In this document: piece by piece, positions 8,856 through 36,237 of the stretch | Numbering within the stretch: position 1 is the first letter of the stretch | Layout: every line of letters begins with the position of its first letter | Source of the DNA: Herbaspirillum hiltneri N3 | Lineage (GTDB): Bacteria > Pseudomonadota > Gammaproteobacteria > Burkholderiales > Burkholderiaceae_D | NCBI RefSeq assembly: GCF_001267925.1 | Contig: NZ_CP011409.1 | Location: 3,658,001-3,722,000 of the forward strand | Length of the DNA: 64,000 nt | Reading direction: 5' to 3' | Translations under genes and position numbers: made by a program | Notes under the pieces: generated by a model | Databases searched by the model: none | What the model was told of the DNA's origin: nothing | What the model saw: the letters and a program-made list of their open reading frames with translations, nothing else

Positions 8856-8880
8856 TGTCCAGTCCTAAAATAGGTTGACA
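8856..8880 (+). repeat. Left terminal inverted repeat of the IS3 element
   Basis: The 25-bp end starts TGTCC and finishes GGTTGACA. It matches the reverse complement of 10145-10169 at 20 of 25 positions and lies just beyond the orfB stop. Confidence 0.8.
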
Positions 8881-8884
8881 GGTT

Positions 8885-9688
8885 TTATTGCAACAAAGAC
8901 GCCCGATGCACCGCATCGGGCGTTTTGTATTTCAAGGCCGTATGCGGCCGTTCCTGGTTGTAGATCCGAACCGATTGCGCCACCATCTTTGCCGCTTGAG
9001 GCAAGTCCGCCGGACGGTTGAGCAAGAACTCTCCCTTGAGGATGCCGTTGACTCGCTCTGCCAATGCATTCTGGTAGCAGTCATACCCATCCGTCATCGA
9101 GCATACCAATCCATGGCGACGATGGATGTCCTGGTAATACGTCGAGCAGTACTGGATGCCTCTGTCAGAGTGGTGAATCACCGGCGTACTGCCATGACGC
9201 TCACGCAACGCCATCTTGAGCGCCTGACTGACTTCCTCTGTCTGCAAGCTGCCATGCACGTGGTAGCCGACGATCTTGCGTGACCAAGCATCCGTCACCA
9301 GGCTCAGATAGACGAACTTGCCTCGTGTGGGCAGGTAGGTAATATCGGCAACCCAGACCTGTTCCGGCCCCGTCGGCACCACTTGCGCCGGCCCGGCCTT
9401 GAGCAGATTGGGATGACGCCGGAAGCGATGATGGCTGTCGGTGGTCTTGTGATAGGCCCGCTGTGGCTGCACCAGCATGCGCGCCTGCCTCAGAATATGG
9501 AACAGTCGATCCCGACCAACCTTCAGGTCTGTTCCGGCAAAGCTGCTACCCAATAAGCTATGTAGTTTGCGTGTCCCTATGCGCGGCTGGCGAAGCCGTA
9601 TCGGTTGCACCAGCTTCACTACGGCATACGCCTGATGCGCCAGATCTTGTTCTCGCTGGCAACGCTTGTAAAACGCCTGACGGCTCAT
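8885..9688 (-). CDS. IS3-family transposase OrfB (DDE integrase domain)
   Basis: OrfB supplies the catalytic rve integrase core. Visible catalytic motifs are D in WVADITYLP, D in HHSDRGIQYCS and E in NALAERVNGILKGEF, with the correct D-D-(35)E-type layout. The N-terminal part has the HTH_21-like region of IS3 OrfB. The ATG gives 267 residues, but the frame is open upstream past the slippery site at 9760-9766, so the working product is probably the OrfAB fusion made by -1 frameshifting. No internal stop or missing residue is seen. Confidence 0.93.
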   Translation of the reverse strand: MSRQAFYKRCQREQDLAHQAYAVVKLVQPIRLRQPRIGTRKLHSLLGSSFAGTDLKVGRDRLFHILRQARMLVQPQRAYHKTTDSHHRFRRHPNLLKAGPAQVVPTGPEQVWVADITYLPTRGKFVYLSLVTDAWSRKIVGYHVHGSLQTEEVSQALKMALRERHGSTPVIHHSDRGIQYCSTYYQDIHRRHGLVCSMTDGYDCYQNALAERVNGILKGEFLLNRPADLPQAAKMVAQSVRIYNQERPHTALKYKTPDAVHRASLLQ

Positions 9689-9717
9689 GCCTATGTGATG
9701 GCAAGCCTTCTGTATGC

Positions 9718-10116
9718 TCAGTCCTTGGACTTCACCACTACAGATAGCTTGCCGGCACGCTTTTTTACGCTCACCCCGTGCTCATCGCGCATGATATCGA
9801 TCACCTTCTCGAACAAGGCCGACTTCAGCTTCTCGTCCTTAAGCTGGCGCTCCAGCTCCTTGATACGCTGCTCGGGTGTTAGTGGTTTAGTTGGTTTGTT
9901 GGTCATCTGCGCTCTCCGCTTGCTCGGCCCCTGCGGTTGGCGCCAATCCTGCAAGCCATGTTTGCGACACCATACCAAAACTGTCGACCGGCCTTGTATT
10001 CCGTACCGCTTTTGCGCCTGCTTGTACGTCATCTCGCCTTTTTCTACCTGCTCGACAACGTTCAATTTAAAAGCCAGGCTGTAATCACGCTGGCTGCGAC
10101 GTTTCTCTTGTTCCAT
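9718..10116 (-). CDS. IS3-family OrfA, DNA-binding transposase subunit
   Basis: The 132-residue protein has an N-terminal helix-turn-helix (YSLAFKLNVVEQVEKG through TYKQAQKRYGI), a WCRKHGL segment and a C-terminal leucine zipper-like coiled coil (TPEQRIKELERQLKDEKLK), as in IS3-family OrfA. It binds the terminal repeats and is fused to OrfB by frameshifting. It lies just inside the right terminal repeat and overlaps the OrfB reading frame at its 3' end. Taken alone it usually represses transposition. Confidence 0.9.
   Translation of the reverse strand: MEQEKRRSQRDYSLAFKLNVVEQVEKGEMTYKQAQKRYGIQGRSTVLVWCRKHGLQDWRQPQGPSKRRAQMTNKPTKPLTPEQRIKELERQLKDEKLKSALFEKVIDIMRDEHGVSVKKRAGKLSVVVKSKD
9760..9766 (-). 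promoter_or_regulatory. A AAA AAG programmed -1 frameshift site of the IS3 element
   Basis: On the minus strand the heptamer A-AAA-AAG lies in the orfA zero frame (GTA AAA AAG encodes VKK). The orfB frame is -1 relative to orfA and open here. This is the classic IS3 slippery sequence for making OrfAB. Confidence 0.88.
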
Positions 10117-10144
10117 CTGACACTCCTTCCTCTCTTCGAAAAAG

Positions 10145-10169
10145 TGTCAACTTATTCCAGGACGGGTCA
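10145..10169 (-). repeat. Right terminal inverted repeat of the IS3 element
   Basis: Read on the minus strand it begins TGACCCGTCCT and ends GTTGACA, pairing with 8856-8880 at 20 of 25 positions. OrfA starts just inside it, which makes this the promoter-proximal end. Confidence 0.8.
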
Positions 10170-10177
10170 AGCGCAAT

Positions 10178-10207
10178 AAAAAAGCCACGGCATGCCGTGG
10201 CTTTTTT
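10178..10207. terminator. Perfect 30-bp palindromic bidirectional terminator
   Basis: aaaaaagccacggca pairs perfectly with tgccgtggctttttt, giving T-runs on both strands. It serves the gspG-like gene on the minus strand. Before the IS inserted it may also have served the lipoprotein gene, which lies on the far side of the IS. Confidence 0.9.
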
Positions 10208-29079: not shown

Positions 29080-30933
29080 ATGAGCACGTCATCCATCGAT
29101 ACCCCCAGCAACGACACCTCCATCGGCGTGAGCAACGACGGTGACCGGCCTTCCACTTCTTCCCTCGATCTCGGCGTCATCGGCAACTGTTCCTACAGCG
29201 CGCTGATCGACAAGCTCGGTCGCGTGGTCTGGTGCTGCCTGCCGCGCTTCGACGGCGATCCGGTGTTCAACGCCTTGCTCGATCCGGGCGAGAGCGGCAG
29301 CCTGTGGAGTTTCGAACTCGAGAATTTTTCGCACAGCGAGCAGTGGTACGAGCCGAACACCGCCGTGCTGAAAACGCGGCTGTACGACACCCTGGGGCAG
29401 GGCGTCGAGATCACCGACTTCGCGCCGCGCTTCCCGAGTCGCGGCCGCTTCTTCCGGCCGCAGACGCTGGTGCGCCGGGTGCTGCCGCTCAACGGCGCGC
29501 CGCGTCTGCGCGTGCTGCTGCGGCCGCGTTTCGACTGGGGCCGCGAAGTGCCCGAGATCACCCGCGGCAGCAATCACGTGCGCTACGTCGGCTCCGAGAT
29601 GACACTGCGCCTGAACACCGACGCCCCGATCAGCTACCTGCTCGACGAGACCGCATTCGTGATCAGCCGGCCGTTCAACTTCCTGCTCGGTCCCGACGAA
29701 ACGCTGACCGGCGGCATCGGCGACACCGCCCGCAGTTTCGAGCAGGAAACCATCACCTACTGGCGCAACTGGAGCCGCAGCCTGGCCACGCCGCTGGAGT
29801 GGCAGGCTGCCGTGATCCGCGCCGCCATCACGCTCAAGATGTCGGTGTATGAAGACACCGGCGCCATCATCGCCGCCATGACCACCAGCGTGCCGGAAGC
29901 ACCGGGCAGTGCACGCAACTGGGACTATCGCTACTGCTGGCTGCGCGACGCCTTCTTCGTGGTGCGCGCGCTCAACAGCATTTCGGAACTCGGCACGATG
30001 GAAGACTACCTGCGCTGGCTCACCAACGTGGTGGTGCGTTCGGCCGGCGGCCACGTGCAGCCGCTGTACGGCATCGGCCTGGAAGAAGCGCTGCCGGAAC
30101 AGATCCTCGACCATTTGCCGGGCTACCGCCATCACGCGCCGGTGCGCGTCGGCAATCAGGCGTACGAACATTTCCAGCACGACGTCTACGGCAACATCGT
30201 CCTCGGCGCGGCGCAGGCTTTCCACGACGCGCGCCTGCACCATCGCGCCGGCGCCGAGCAGTTCAAGCATCTGGAAGCCGTCGGCGAACGCGCCTTTGAA
30301 ATGTACGACCGCCCCGACGCCGGCATGTGGGAGCTGCGCACGCGTTCGCGCATCCATACGTCCTCCGCGTTGATGAGCTGGGCCGCCTGCGATCGCCTCG
30401 GCAAGATCGCCGCACGGCTCGAACTCGATGAGCGTGCGCGCTACTGGCACGAGCGCGCCGACATGATCGGCAAACGCATCCTGACCGAAGCCTGGAACGA
30501 AGAGCGCCAGACCTACGCCGAAAGTTTCGGCGGCCGCGACCTCGACGCCAGCGTCTTGCTGATGGTCGAAGTCGGCCTCATCGCACCGACCGACAAGCGC
30601 TTCATCGCCACCGTCGACGCACTGGAGAAATACCTGTGCGACGGTCCCTACATGCGCCGCTACGAAGCGCCCGATGATTTCGGCCGGCCCGAGACGGCCT
30701 TCAACATCTGCACCTTCTGGCGCATCGACGCGCTCGCACGCATCGGCCGCAAGGAACAGGCGCGCGAGATTTTCGAGGCCATGCTGGCGGCGCGCAACCA
30801 CGTCGGCCTGCTGTCCGAAGACACGCATCCGATTACCGGCCAGATGTGGGGTAACTTCCCGCAGACCTATTCGATGGTCGGCATCATCAATTGCGCGATG
30901 AGACTCTCCGCTTCATGGGAGTCAGTGATTTAA
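29080..30933 (+). CDS. Glycoside hydrolase family 15 protein (glucoamylase/trehalase-like)
   Basis: The 617-residue cytoplasmic protein has no signal peptide. It contains an N-terminal beta-sandwich domain (GVIGNCSYSALIDKLGRVVW, about 32-51) and a C-terminal (alpha/alpha)6 GH15 domain with NWDYRYCWLRDAFFV near 282-296 and the C-terminal catalytic region MWGNFPQTYSMVG. It could be a glucan hydrolase or, like some bacterial GH15 enzymes, a trehalase. Its place between otsB and otsA, 93 bp after otsB, argues for a role in trehalose turnover. The Ser/Thr-rich first 28 residues look disordered. Confidence 0.9.
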   Translation: MSTSSIDTPSNDTSIGVSNDGDRPSTSSLDLGVIGNCSYSALIDKLGRVVWCCLPRFDGDPVFNALLDPGESGSLWSFELENFSHSEQWYEPNTAVLKTRLYDTLGQGVEITDFAPRFPSRGRFFRPQTLVRRVLPLNGAPRLRVLLRPRFDWGREVPEITRGSNHVRYVGSEMTLRLNTDAPISYLLDETAFVISRPFNFLLGPDETLTGGIGDTARSFEQETITYWRNWSRSLATPLEWQAAVIRAAITLKMSVYEDTGAIIAAMTTSVPEAPGSARNWDYRYCWLRDAFFVVRALNSISELGTMEDYLRWLTNVVVRSAGGHVQPLYGIGLEEALPEQILDHLPGYRHHAPVRVGNQAYEHFQHDVYGNIVLGAAQAFHDARLHHRAGAEQFKHLEAVGERAFEMYDRPDAGMWELRTRSRIHTSSALMSWAACDRLGKIAARLELDERARYWHERADMIGKRILTEAWNEERQTYAESFGGRDLDASVLLMVEVGLIAPTDKRFIATVDALEKYLCDGPYMRRYEAPDDFGRPETAFNICTFWRIDALARIGRKEQAREIFEAMLAARNHVGLLSEDTHPITGQMWGNFPQTYSMVGIINCAMRLSASWESVI

Positions 30934-31002
30934 CGACGCCATTACCGAACCCGATTGCCCGCATTTTTCCGGCCCACACAACAACAAAGAAGGAGTTTCG
31001 CC

Positions 31003-31761
31003 ATGTCCCGCCTCGTCGTCGTTTCTAATCGTCTCGCAGATCCGCGCAAGCCGGCGGCCGGGGGACTGGCGGTGGCGCTGGGCGAAACCCTCAAACGCAC
31101 CGGCGGCCTGTGGTTTGGCTGGAGCGGCAAGGTCGTCGAAGACGGTACGCCCGGAGAAGGCGCGCTGCACGTCAACCAGGCCGGACCGGTGACGCTGGCC
31201 GAGCTGGACCTGTGCGCCGAAGACCACGACGCCTATTACCGCGGCTACGCCAACGGCGTGCTGTGGCCAGTGTTCCATTACCGTCTCGACCTGGCGCATT
31301 TCGAGTCGGGCCACCTGAGCGGTTATCGGCGCGTCAACCAGCTATTTGCGCGCAAGCTGATGCCGCTGCTCAAACCGGACGACCTGATCTGGATCCATGA
31401 CTATCACCTGATTCCGCTGGCCGCCGAATTGCGCGCCATGGGTTGCGGCAACCGCATCGGTTTCTTCCTGCACATCCCGTTGCCGCCGCAGCAGATCCTG
31501 GCGGCGATCCCTTCGCACGAATGGCTGATGCGCGCGCTGTTCGCCTATGACCTGGTCGGCTTCCAGACCGAAGCCGATCTGCTGCATTTCTCGCACTACG
31601 TCAAAGCCGAGGCCACCGCCGAGACCGTCGGCGTGAGCCAGTTCCGCGCCTTCAACAGCACGGTGCAGGCCAAGGCCTTTCCGATCGGCATCGACGTCGA
31701 CGACTTCCAGCGTCTCGGCCGCGCCCGCGAGGCGCGCGACACCTTCGAGAATACGCGCAAG
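31003..31761 (+). pseudogene. otsA: Trehalose-6-phosphate synthase, truncated after about 252 codons
   Basis: The start has an ideal AAGGAG site. The N-terminal half is normal: VSNRLADP with the glycine loop [36 protein letters not shown] (HDYH 132-135) and [11 protein letters not shown]. Homology stops at about residue 252, roughly half the usual 450-480 residues. The second Rossmann domain, with the UDP-glucose-binding Arg/Lys (VDRLDYSKG-like) and its acidic motif, is absent, so the enzyme must be inactive. The frame runs on to a stop at 32092-32094 through antisense pyrG and hydrolase sequence, encoding nonsense. The cut coincides with an oppositely oriented pyrG fragment. Confidence 0.9.
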
Positions 31762-31872
31762 AAGGGTGACTCGGAGGCCGCGCGATTCGAGGATCGCAGC
31801 GAGAGACGCGGCGGCAATCCCTTTACCCAGGGAAGACACGACGCCGCCAGTGACAAATACAAACTTGGTCAT
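31759..31872 (-). pseudogene. pyrG: CTP synthase N-terminal fragment (first 38 codons)
   Basis: On the minus strand the ATG at 31872 begins [20 protein letters not shown] and continues to RGLRVTLL, the near-invariant N-terminus of CTP synthase with its P-loop-like [10 protein letters not shown]. After codon 38 the frame enters antisense otsA and similarity ends, so about 500 residues are missing, including the rest of the synthetase domain and the glutamine amidotransferase domain. A TATAAT box lies upstream. pyrG is normally essential, so a complete copy must exist elsewhere or this join is an assembly artefact. Confidence 0.9.
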
Positions 31873-31911
31873 TACAAAGAAGGTGCCGAACGGCACGTGC
31901 GGGAAATTCGA

Positions 31912-31917
31912 ATTATA
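31912..31917 (-). promoter_or_regulatory. Candidate -10 box of the pyrG stub
   Basis: TATAAT on the minus strand lies 40 bp before the pyrG ATG; the -35 at 17 bp (GATGAA) is poor. A small gtgccg/cggcac inverted repeat follows at 31883-31896 in the presumed leader. It suggests that the original pyrG promoter is still present. Confidence 0.4.
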
Positions 31918-31988
31918 CCCCAAACCGTCCGCTTTTCATCCCCCTCTTTTGCGGAAGCAGCAGATTTTCGGCTGCAATTCCCCGCAAT

Positions 31989-32804
31989 TTATTTCCCTGC
32001 AAGCAAGCCCTGGATCATTTCATGGGTCGCCTGTGCGGCGGCTTCGGGCGCTTCCATCGGGAACAGATGGCCCCCCGGAATCTGCCGGAAATGACGCCCC
32101 GCCAGCTTTTTGGTGGCGTCCAGTCCGGCCAGGCGGCACTCGACCGAATCGATACCGCCGACGAAACCGACCGGCACCGGATATTGTCGCCGCGTCAATG
32201 CCCCCAAGTGATGGGGGATGGTGCGGTAGACCGCGGTTTCGGTTTCGCGCGTGAAGCGCAGCTTGACGCCGCCGGACGGCTCCGGCTCGACGCCGTGGGC
32301 GACATAATCGCGCAGCACGCGCTCGGGCCACGCCGCGAACATGGCCTTGGCGGCGTAGTGCTGATAAGCCGCCTCCATGTCCGGCCAGGCGTTGCGGCGG
32401 CGGCTCGATGCCACAGACGGCGAATGGCGGCTTTCGATGCGCAGCAGCTTGAGCAGGCGCAACGTGGAGGCGCGCCACCCCGCCACGATGGGCGAATCCA
32501 GCAACACCACGCAGCGCACCAGGTCGGGACGTTTGCGCCCCGCCAGCAGGCTCAGGATGCCGCCCATGGAGTGGCCGACCAGAATGACCGGTTCGCTGTA
32601 GCGTTGCGCCAGTTCCTCGCCCAATTCCTTGCCGAGCTTGCGCCAGCCGTCATCCACCGGGTAAGCCGGATTGTGCGCATGCATGGGCAAGGCGCGCACA
32701 TCGTAGTGCGCGCGCAACTGGTCGAAGAACATGCCGTAGGTCCCGGCCGGGTAACTGTTGGCGTGGGCGAAATGCAGAATCGGCAAGGTCGGCTGGTGGT
32801 TCAT
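31989..32804 (-). CDS. Alpha/beta hydrolase
   Basis: The ATG at 32804 gives 271 residues and places the family N-terminus (ILHFAHANSYPAGTY) correctly. The nucleophile elbow is GHSMGG (serine near 79), a candidate acid is in GGIDSVECR, and the catalytic histidine is in IPGGHLFPMEAP near the C-terminus. There is no signal peptide. The specific substrate is unknown. It follows comEC on the same strand and precedes the pyrG stub, and this hydrolase-pyrG adjacency is probably ancestral in the lineage. Confidence 0.85.
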   Translation of the reverse strand: MNHQPTLPILHFAHANSYPAGTYGMFFDQLRAHYDVRALPMHAHNPAYPVDDGWRKLGKELGEELAQRYSEPVILVGHSMGGILSLLAGRKRPDLVRCVVLLDSPIVAGWRASTLRLLKLLRIESRHSPSVASSRRRNAWPDMEAAYQHYAAKAMFAAWPERVLRDYVAHGVEPEPSGGVKLRFTRETETAVYRTIPHHLGALTRRQYPVPVGFVGGIDSVECRLAGLDATKKLAGRHFRQIPGGHLFPMEAPEAAAQATHEMIQGLLAGK

Positions 32805-32908
32805 GAATTGAAATGGAGGTATCGATTGCCGGATTATCTGGCAATTAATGCGCGGCGTCAGCCTTTTCCGGCGTGCTTTTTCAGTGTGCGGCGTGCTTTT
32901 TTCGGTTG

Positions 32909-35437
32909 TTATTTCTCGTACCAGTAACGCGCATGTTCGCGGCGATATTCCTGCACGCTTATCTTGCCGCCCGCCTTGTCGCCCGCCTTGTCGAATTGCA
33001 GTGAAATGGCGCCCGCCTCGTCGTTGCGCAAGCCGCGTATGCCCATGCGGCCATAGCGTTCGAGCACTTCCGGCTTGGGATGATTGAAGCGGTTGCGATA
33101 ACCCATCTGGAACAAGGCCAGGCTCGGCTGCACTGCCTGCAGGAAAGCTTCCGTCGACGACGTGCCGCTGCCGTGATGCGGCGCCACCAGAACGTCGGCG
33201 CGCAATTGGGCGGCGCCGGCGCCGTTGACGAGTTCGTCTTCCTGCACCGCCTCGATGTCGCCGGGCAGCAGGATGGCGTGCTTGCCCAGACTGACTTTCA
33301 GCACGCAACTGCGCGCGTTGGGCTTCCACTTGTCGCTGGTGTAACTGACCGGCGCCGGATACAGCATGTCGAACGCCACGCCGTCCCAACGCCAGTGCTG
33401 TCCGGCCTGGCAGCGCTTGTGATCGGGCGCGGCCTGCACGATTGCGCTGGTCGGCGACAGCGATGAATACACGCGGTCGACGGCGATCTCCCTGAACAGC
33501 GACAGCGCGCCGCCGGAATGATCATTGTCGTTATGCGAAATCACCACGGCGTCGAGGTGATCGATACCGCGTGCGCGCAGATACGGCACGATCACGCGAT
33601 TGGCGCCGTCGGATTCCGGCGAGTAATACGGACCGGTGTCGTACAGCAGCCGATGTCCCGGCGTCTCCACCAGCAAGGCCATGCCCTGCCCGACGTCGAA
33701 GGCCGTCACGTGGACCTGGTCCTGCTCCGGCCAGGCCGGGGTATTGAAAATCAGCGGCAGCCAGCCGAACAGCCCCAGCCAGCGCGCCGGCCAGCCGCGC
33801 GGCGCCAACAGCAGCAAGGTCCCGCCCAGCGCCACTGCAAATATCCATAGCGGCGGCAACGGCGCCTGCCAGACTGCAAACGGCTGGCCCGCAAGCCACT
33901 CCAGCAACTGCACCAGCCACTCCAGCACGGCATGCGCGGTCAGCAACAGCCACTGCGACAAAGGTGGCGGCAAGATGCTGCCCAGCAGCGACAGCGGTGC
34001 AATCACGATGGTGATCAAGGGAATCGCCGCCGCATTGGCCAGCGGACTGAGCAGCGAGTACTGCCCGAACAGCACCATCGTCAATGGCAACAAGCCAAGC
34101 GTCACGACATACTGTGTATAAGCGCCCGCGCGCAGCGAGCGCCAGCTCTTCGCCATGTACGAGGGCTTGCGATGGCGCTGCACCGGGGTCAGGACCTGCG
34201 GCTCGGCCGGCATGTCCGCGCCGATGCGCCCGGAGGAAGCGTACAGAATGATCGCCACGGCGCCGAACGACAGCCAGAAGCCCGGCCACAGCAAAGCCCA
34301 CGGATCGAACAGCAGCACCACTGCCAGCGCCAGCGACATCACATAGGAAATATGCGTCAGCCTCCCCGTCCAATACGCCAGCCCCACCACGCACAGCATG
34401 TACAAGGTGCGCTGCGCCGGCACGCCGAACCCCGCCAGCAGCACGTAGACCAGCGCCGCCAGCAAACCGGCCAGCACCGCCACTTTGGGTGCGGGCATCA
34501 GCAACGGCAGTTGCGCCCGCGTGACGAACGAACATCGCCACAGCAAACCGAAGAACGCGCCGAACAGGCCCGAGATCAGCGTGATGTGCAATCCGGAAAT
34601 CGCCACCAGGTGGCCGACGCCCGTACGGTTGAATATGCTCCAGTCGGATTGTTCGATGGCACGCTGATCGCCGATCACCAGCGCAACGATGACGCCGGCG
34701 TATCGCTGTTTCGGCAGCGCGGACATGATGCGGTCGCGCAGCCAGGAGCGACCGCGCTCGATGGCGTTGGACGGCGTCCGGATGAACTCCTGCAGGCGAT
34801 GATTCTTGTAGGCCGATTGCTGGTCGGATCGCACCGAGCCGGTCGCACGCAGGTTCTGTTCCAGCAGCCAGACTTCGTAGTCGAAACCATGCGGATTGGC
34901 GTTGCCATGCGGACGCTTCAGACGCACCGTAAATTGCCAGCGTTCACCCGGACGCACCTCGGGAACCGCCTGCAGCGGCTCGCCGCCGGCCTGGCCGAAT
35001 GCGCCGGGGCTGTACCAGGACAAAGCGAGTCGCTGCGGCACCGGCGGCGTACCGCCATTTTGCGTGCCGACTCTCTCCACCTTGAAATTGAAGCGCACGC
35101 CGCGCTCGAAACGATACGGCAGGCTGTCGATGGTCCCCACCACCACGATGTCGCGGCCTTCCCATGCTGCCGGCAAAGCGTCGTCGAGCCGGCTTTGCGC
35201 CATCAGGCCGCCCCAGGCGAAGCCGGCACAGAGTCCGGCGATATTGAACAGAACAATGCGCAGGACGGTCCGCCCCCCTCCGCTGGCGCGGGCGCCGGCG
35301 CTGCGCAGCCGCCAGCACACCGTCAACAGCAGGACCGCCGCTGCCAGCAACGCCATATGCCCTTCAAAGGGAAGCAGTTGCGCCTGCATCTGCAAAAAGG
35401 CAATTCCTGCGGCGAAACCGAGAATCGCGCTGCGCAT
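32909..35437 (-). CDS. comEC: DNA uptake/internalisation protein ComEC
   Basis: ComEC forms the inner-membrane channel for single-stranded DNA in natural transformation. From the ATG at 35437, three bases after the tatD stop, it is 842 residues. It contains an N-terminal DUF4131 region, the Competence domain (GVGHLVAISGLHITLISGL, about 290-308, then many helices), and a C-terminal metallo-beta-lactamase-like domain with AFDVGQGMALLV, HNDNDHSGG and VAPHHGSGTSSTEAF. All three parts are intact, so competence is possible if the pilus genes exist elsewhere. The start shared with tatD implies coupling. Confidence 0.94.
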   Translation of the reverse strand: MRSAILGFAAGIAFLQMQAQLLPFEGHMALLAAAVLLLTVCWRLRSAGARASGGGRTVLRIVLFNIAGLCAGFAWGGLMAQSRLDDALPAAWEGRDIVVVGTIDSLPYRFERGVRFNFKVERVGTQNGGTPPVPQRLALSWYSPGAFGQAGGEPLQAVPEVRPGERWQFTVRLKRPHGNANPHGFDYEVWLLEQNLRATGSVRSDQQSAYKNHRLQEFIRTPSNAIERGRSWLRDRIMSALPKQRYAGVIVALVIGDQRAIEQSDWSIFNRTGVGHLVAISGLHITLISGLFGAFFGLLWRCSFVTRAQLPLLMPAPKVAVLAGLLAALVYVLLAGFGVPAQRTLYMLCVVGLAYWTGRLTHISYVMSLALAVVLLFDPWALLWPGFWLSFGAVAIILYASSGRIGADMPAEPQVLTPVQRHRKPSYMAKSWRSLRAGAYTQYVVTLGLLPLTMVLFGQYSLLSPLANAAAIPLITIVIAPLSLLGSILPPPLSQWLLLTAHAVLEWLVQLLEWLAGQPFAVWQAPLPPLWIFAVALGGTLLLLAPRGWPARWLGLFGWLPLIFNTPAWPEQDQVHVTAFDVGQGMALLVETPGHRLLYDTGPYYSPESDGANRVIVPYLRARGIDHLDAVVISHNDNDHSGGALSLFREIAVDRVYSSLSPTSAIVQAAPDHKRCQAGQHWRWDGVAFDMLYPAPVSYTSDKWKPNARSCVLKVSLGKHAILLPGDIEAVQEDELVNGAGAAQLRADVLVAPHHGSGTSSTEAFLQAVQPSLALFQMGYRNRFNHPKPEVLERYGRMGIRGLRNDEAGAISLQFDKAGDKAGGKISVQEYRREHARYWYEK

Positions 35438-35439
35438 GC

Positions 35440-36237
35440 TTATGTCGCCGCAGCCAGGCGCGGCAGCACCGCGTGCGCATTGGCGCTGGTGGCTGCGGCC
35501 ACGTCCGCGATATCCATGCCGCGCAATTCGGCGAGTACCTGGCCGATACGCGGAATCTGGTCCGGCGTATTGCGCTGAGGATGCAGCCACGCGGGCGAGA
35601 TGTCGGGCGCGTCGGTTTCCAGCACGACGGCGTCAAGCGGGACCTCCGCCGCCAACCGCCGTATCTGCAGCGAACGCGGGAATGTCATCGCGCCGCCCAA
35701 GCCCAGTTTGAAACCCAGTCCGACGAAAGTCTCGGCCTGCTGGAAACTGCCGTTGAAGGCGTGCGCGATGCCACCCGGCACGGCGATGCGACGCAGATAT
35801 TTGAGGATGATGTCTTGCGAGCGGCGCACATGCAGCAGCACCGGCAAATCGAATTCGCGCGCCAGCTTGAGTTGCTCGCTGTAGAAGTGCTCCTGCTTGT
35901 CGCGCATGGCCGGCTCTTTCAGGGCGGGCACGAAGAAGTCCAGTCCGATTTCACCGATGGCGACAAAGCGTCTGTCTCTCAGCGCGGCTTCGATTGCATG
36001 GCGCAGCGCCAGCAAGTCGCTCTCGTCGCAGCCCGGAACATACAAGGGATGGATGCCCAGCGCATACGCGCAATTGCCGCGTTGCCGCGCCAGCCGTGCA
36101 ACCGCGTCGAAATTGAAAGGCGCCACCGCCGGCACCACGATCATGCCTACGCCCTGCCCGGCCGCGTCGTCGGCGACGGCGAGCTCCTCGCCGGCAAACT
36201 CGCCGGCATCGAGATGGCAGTGCGTATCAATCCACAT
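35440..36237 (-). CDS. tatD: TatD-family metal-dependent deoxyribonuclease
   Basis: The ATG at 36237 gives 265 residues beginning MWIDTHCHLD, the metal-binding HxH motif of the TIM-barrel amidohydrolase-like TatD family. Other motifs are GIHPLYV, GEIGLDFF, LPVLLHVRRSQDI, GIAHAFNGS and LETDAPDISP, which carry the remaining His and Asp ligands. TatD proteins have 3'-5' DNA exonuclease or DNA-repair activities. The gene is separated from comEC by two bases and from argE by about 70 bp. Confidence 0.92.
   Translation of the reverse strand: MWIDTHCHLDAGEFAGEELAVADDAAGQGVGMIVVPAVAPFNFDAVARLARQRGNCAYALGIHPLYVPGCDESDLLALRHAIEAALRDRRFVAIGEIGLDFFVPALKEPAMRDKQEHFYSEQLKLAREFDLPVLLHVRRSQDIILKYLRRIAVPGGIAHAFNGSFQQAETFVGLGFKLGLGGAMTFPRSLQIRRLAAEVPLDAVVLETDAPDISPAWLHPQRNTPDQIPRIGQVLAELRGMDIADVAAATSANAHAVLPRLAAAT

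Follow-up and report, generated by a model that had tools for sequence, protein, structure and literature searches.

In the deposited chromosome of Herbaspirillum hiltneri N3, otsA and pyrG were with near certainty joined falsely during contig assembly and not by a rearrangement of DNA in the bacterium. This reading follows from the fact that both genes stop at the join, that their remainders were not found, that further genes of a normally essential kind are missing or truncated, and that the same sequence contains further mid-gene joins, one of which is bounded by a 2.95-kb copy. The window analyzed here, a stretch of 64,000 nucleotides (G000:C1:3658001-3722000), belongs to a genome represented by one contig of 4,965,474 bp.

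The otsA gene, encoding trehalose-6-phosphate synthase, occupies positions 31003 to 31761 of the plus strand with codons 1-252 only, and pyrG, encoding CTP synthase, occupies positions 31759 to 31872 of the minus strand with codons 1-38 only. The translation of 31003-31758 gave 252 residues corresponding to positions 1-251 of the 456 positions of the OtsA model (TIGR02400, E 1.5e-80), and the minus-strand translation of 31759-31872 gave 38 residues corresponding to the start of CTP synthase (PRK05380, E 3.6e-15), the sole pyrG sequence found in the genome. Alignment to relatives showed that the otsA homology extends through position 31761 and that the pyrG homology starts at 31759 (against the relative G005) or 31760 (against H. 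lusitanum). The presumed false contig junction thus lies at 31759-31761, where only the trinucleotide AAG is compatible with both sides. A preliminary description of the window, in which otsA was regarded as normal to codon 252, pyrG as normal for its first 38 codons, and the meeting point as lying near 31,759 with at most about 3 bp in common, was therefore borne out to the base.

The flanks of the join correspond to two separate regions of G005. On the left side, a glycosyl hydrolase family 15 gene (29080-30933, plus strand, 617 aa) shows collinearity with the otsA regions found in G005 and on H. lusitanum contig 177. On the right side, an alpha/beta hydrolase gene adjoining pyrG (31989-32804, minus strand, with the start codon at 32804 placed by eye) and a comEC-like gene (32909-35590, minus strand, 893 aa, with Competence and lactamase-B domains) are collinear with the pyrG-hydrolase-comEC region of G005 and the pyrG region of relatives. 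The trehalose-side block and the comEC-hydrolase-pyrG block recognized earlier could therefore be confirmed. The same holds for the earlier statement that no IS, repeat, or tRNA separates them: no tRNA was detected in positions 30500-33000, and the only repeats detected within 300 bases on either side were a weak 17-nt direct match and a 15-nt inverted match, neither at the join. The 401-bp stretch spanning the join had no second match in the N3 genome.

The preliminary description had considered that an intact pyrG might exist elsewhere in the chromosome. Family and protein searches of the 4.97-Mb genome found none: the family search gave only model positions 1-35, and of the full-length CTP synthase protein of G005 only residues 1-39 were matched, with all first-look candidates scored. 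Neither did we see the reciprocal join of the otsA 3′ half and the pyrG 3′ part that had been suggested to be searched for, as neither 3′ part was found; codons 39 onward of pyrG were missing, and the otsA 3′ half, used together with the DNA behind it as a DNA query (40 of 132 candidates scored), yielded a single weak hit some 70 bases long (E 6.7e-4).

The loss extends to the neighbors of both genes, and pyrG, eno, aspS, and kdsA are normally essential. In G005, pyrG, kdsA, and eno are consecutive and are followed by a short gene, which we take to be ftsB-like, and pnuC; pyrG, kdsA, and eno also lie together on one H. lusitanum contig. A 5,028-bp query from G005 covering pyrG to pnuC matched N3 only in 114 bp of the pyrG start, 117 bp of eno at 1,969,102, and pnuC at 2,503,157, and this DNA query revealed no match to kdsA or to the short gene (40 of 95 candidates scored). 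When the enolase protein was used as query and all candidates were scored, only residues 364-424 of 427 were matched in N3, at 69% identity. The next conserved gene behind otsA in G005 is aspS; the otsA-aspS adjacency presumed for N3 is taken from G005, and H. lusitanum contig 177 beyond otsA did not match G005. The homology of the N3 aspS to G005 ends inside the gene at G000:4,560,466, and the AspRS model matched this 4.56-Mb locus only at positions 322-582 of 586, the C-terminal half, below the cut-off. Two further matches to this model, also below its cut-off, belong to a 516-aa gene of the window for a class II (D, K, N) synthetase, presumably resembling lysS. Over the whole DNA between the aspS break and otsA codon 252, the weak 70-base hit already mentioned was the only one (two queries, with 40 candidates scored in each, out of 132 and 157). 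Accordingly, pyrG, eno, and aspS (by protein or family searches) and kdsA (by DNA query only) are lost from the N3 sequence without a second copy.

Gene order was compared with close relatives, as had been proposed: 34 Herbaspirillum genomes, N3 among them, were searched with the 401-bp sequence spanning the join. Only N3 matched across the join, and the two halves were adjacent in none of the 33 other genomes, indicating that the join is not ancestral. The halves were found as separate matches in 31 of these 33 congeners (with a doubtful 32-bp otsA match in G044), lying on different contigs in 24 of the 31, and the remaining two congeners had one half only. In all six relatives represented by a single contig, the halves are 2.68-3.12 Mb apart in linear coordinates, on the same strand and in the same relative orientation as in N3, which confirmed that the otsA and pyrG regions are distant there. 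A CTP synthase domain was present in 28 of the 30 relatives searched, in one piece in 27 and on two contigs in G029. The two relatives without it are G024, which is 68% complete, and G016; a natural loss of pyrG in the latter was rejected in favor of a draft gap, since its pyrG is cut off by the ends of two contigs, C54 and C37.

Independent sequences revealed how otsA normally continues. OtsA was matched in 10 of the 18 relatives searched, with all ten frames open for at least 463 aa, and the nearest relatives by the OtsA fragment, among the named genomes in the best 80 matches, are Herbaspirillum species at 96-97% identity. The 363-aa chimeric frame was also used in a protein search, in which 7999 candidates sharing most words were scored and the best 120 were listed. 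The best match, P0001, derived from JGI and ENA sources (9 contigs, the longest of 153 kb), agrees with the window at every one of the 252 residues (100% identity) and represents a full-length OtsA of 458 aa above the model cut-off. P0001 to P0003 are 99-100% identical over the common part, are all 458 aa long, and continue past codon 252. Among the matches listed, four covered the whole chimeric query at 57-58% identity and one covered 90% of it at 61%; these five are proteins of 458 and 489 aa with an OtsA domain, of ordinary length. The chimera of the window itself was absent among the 120 matches listed, so that the search demonstrates the normal continuation of otsA in a near-identical relative and not the uniqueness of the chimera.

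When the ends of the missing regions were followed onward, two more clear mid-gene joins and one probable join were discovered. At about 2,503,157, the 5′ part of a binding-protein gene runs into pnuC, and 17 bases at this point also fit the pnuC of H. lusitanum. The preceding 2.95 kb (G000:2,500,210-2,503,157) reproduce 226,723-229,669 at 99.4% identity. They contain two complete ORFs, of 300 and 322 aa, and the beginning of the binding-protein gene, whose full 448-aa version is found at 226-231 kb. A 1,283-bp segment of the copied region has two full matches in N3, 100% identical, and was matched in 28 of 33 congeners, none of which had two full copies. The copy is probably a contig end that was used twice, and we regard it as false. 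At 4,560,466, aspS breaks off and the sequence continues as the 3′ end of another binding-protein-like gene, with about 24 bases fitting both frames by eye; this 3′ end shares 67% protein identity with the 448-aa gene. We use the name "binding protein" on the basis of sub-cut-off matches between the 448-aa gene and models of ABC binding proteins, and extend it to the 3′ end in view of the 67% identity just given.

At 1,969,219, a 3′ piece of eno (G000:1,969,078-1,969,219) meets a frame of no assigned family, a junction that is probably a third additional false join. The last residues of the eno piece and the DNA downstream are unlike the pyrG-linked enolase of G005 and H. lusitanum; the piece, at first taken for the 3′ end of that gene, may instead come from a second enolase gene, as its tail. 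No family scored above cut-off when the 1.969-Mb frame and the 3′ end of the binding-protein-like gene were scanned; a single Pfam match, at E 0.025, fell short of its own cut-off. We had also considered that the ends of three true gaps, namely otsA-aspS, pyrG-pnuC, and a break within one binding-protein gene, were exchanged among one another to give three joins. In that form the model was ruled out, because the 5′ part at 2.503 Mb copies a whole gene and the 3′ end seen at 4.56 Mb comes from another one. The overlaps of 17-24 bases could be what faulty overlap merging leaves. The otsA-pyrG join shares only 3 bp, which makes its exact mechanical cause less clear and an overlap merge less obvious there.

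The history of the N3 record (CP011409) is compatible with such errors. SOLiD fragment and mate-pair reads, which gave 5,970 contigs and 283 scaffolds from Phrap, were combined with MiSeq reads; Velvet, CLC, ALLPATHS-LG, and Edena were used as assemblers; and H. seropedicae SmR1 and H. lusitanum P6-12 served as references for contig alignment, with gaps closed by FGAP, to give a single chromosome of 4,965,474 bp (PMC4626616). According to a later paper, the reference by which the N3 contigs were ordered comprised more than 800 H. lusitanum contigs mapped on SmR1 (PMC5056350). A pipeline of this kind can abut unrelated contig ends, and we infer that it did so in N3: contig ends inside otsA and inside pyrG would have been placed against each other when the short-read assembly was ordered and its gaps were closed automatically, and the true continuation of each end would have been dropped. 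Strain N3 itself would then carry whole pyrG, kdsA, eno, and aspS. An ordering reference broken at the same points was rejected as the source, as H. lusitanum contigs run through both the otsA and the pyrG break points; the reference alone thus does not explain the join.

Chimeric contig joins are a familiar kind of error in finished short-read genomes. N3 resembles them in its mid-gene, nearly blunt join of distant loci with sequence missing at the join, in a contig end apparently used twice, and in truncated essential genes lacking another copy. There is no difference of substance, except that the N3 record is called complete and is rated at 99.99% completeness. This rating counts against an artefact, as do the 3 bp in common, fewer than at the join of the binding-protein gene with pnuC, and, with little informative value, the GC skew, which keeps its sign across the join (−0.019 on the left, −0.032 on the right).

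The preliminary description had named two possible causes, an inversion or deletion of the chromosome with an intact pyrG elsewhere, or a false assembly join. Only the latter gained support, and that strongly; the former is unsupported, the searches having found neither another pyrG nor a reciprocal join. A simple inversion, suggested by head-to-head fragments that look like an inversion end, has next to no probability: the halves keep the N3 orientation in 6/6 single-contig relatives, where an inversion should leave them in opposite orientation and would not produce this join, and the 3′ parts required for a reciprocal join were not found. Repeat- or IS-mediated inversions likewise unite two distant loci; however, they keep all sequence, leave a reciprocal join, and usually have a repeat or IS at their ends, none of which is seen in N3. 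A simple deletion between otsA and pyrG was rejected, since N3 retains, at other places, portions of the 2.9 Mb that separate the two loci in G005 (the pnuC region at 2.50 Mb and the aspS 3′ half at 4.56 Mb), and vital genes are lost.

It is very unlikely that a real translocation or large deletion took place in N3, with pyrG, kdsA, eno, and aspS residing on an undeposited second replicon. Such a replicon would not show in a single-contig record, and the deposited sequence is continuous across the join; against this stand the loss or cutting of several normally essential genes at separate places, the linkage of pyrG, kdsA, and eno in relatives, the 2.95-kb copy ending at another join, and the single chromosome reported for N3 (PMC4626616). 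Even less probable is a truly scrambled N3 chromosome in which CTP synthase, enolase, KDO-8-P synthase, and aspartyl-tRNA synthetase are encoded on an undeposited replicon or otherwise replaced. Nothing found speaks for a genuine species feature shared by other H. hiltneri-like strains, which has a vanishingly small probability, as P0001 to P0003 all run to 458 aa, though the search that recovered them lacks the power to show that the chimera is absent elsewhere. The false contig join remains by far the best account, and the other joins and the copy within the same assembly are what it leads one to expect.

The join is almost certainly a database error of practical note and not a biological feature. 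The N3 record was published as complete, yet pyrG, eno, and aspS are not present whole in it, kdsA is apparently missing too, and genes are joined midway at three places or more. Conclusions on gene absence, comparisons of synteny, and metabolic models that rely on this record would err at these places. The announcement credits N3 with every glycolytic gene other than PFK (PMC4626616), which does not fit the sequence, in which enolase is truncated. No published notice of an assembly error in N3 was found, and in the literature searched the accession is printed only in the announcement (PMC4626616). The completeness estimate of 99.99% missed the loss of whole pyrG, eno, and aspS. Elsewhere in the window, positions 8856-10186 hold a 1,331-bp insertion element with two ORFs and an integrase core domain, which has a 99.1% identical inverted copy at G000:1,982,731-1,984,061. 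We take this element to be IS3-like.
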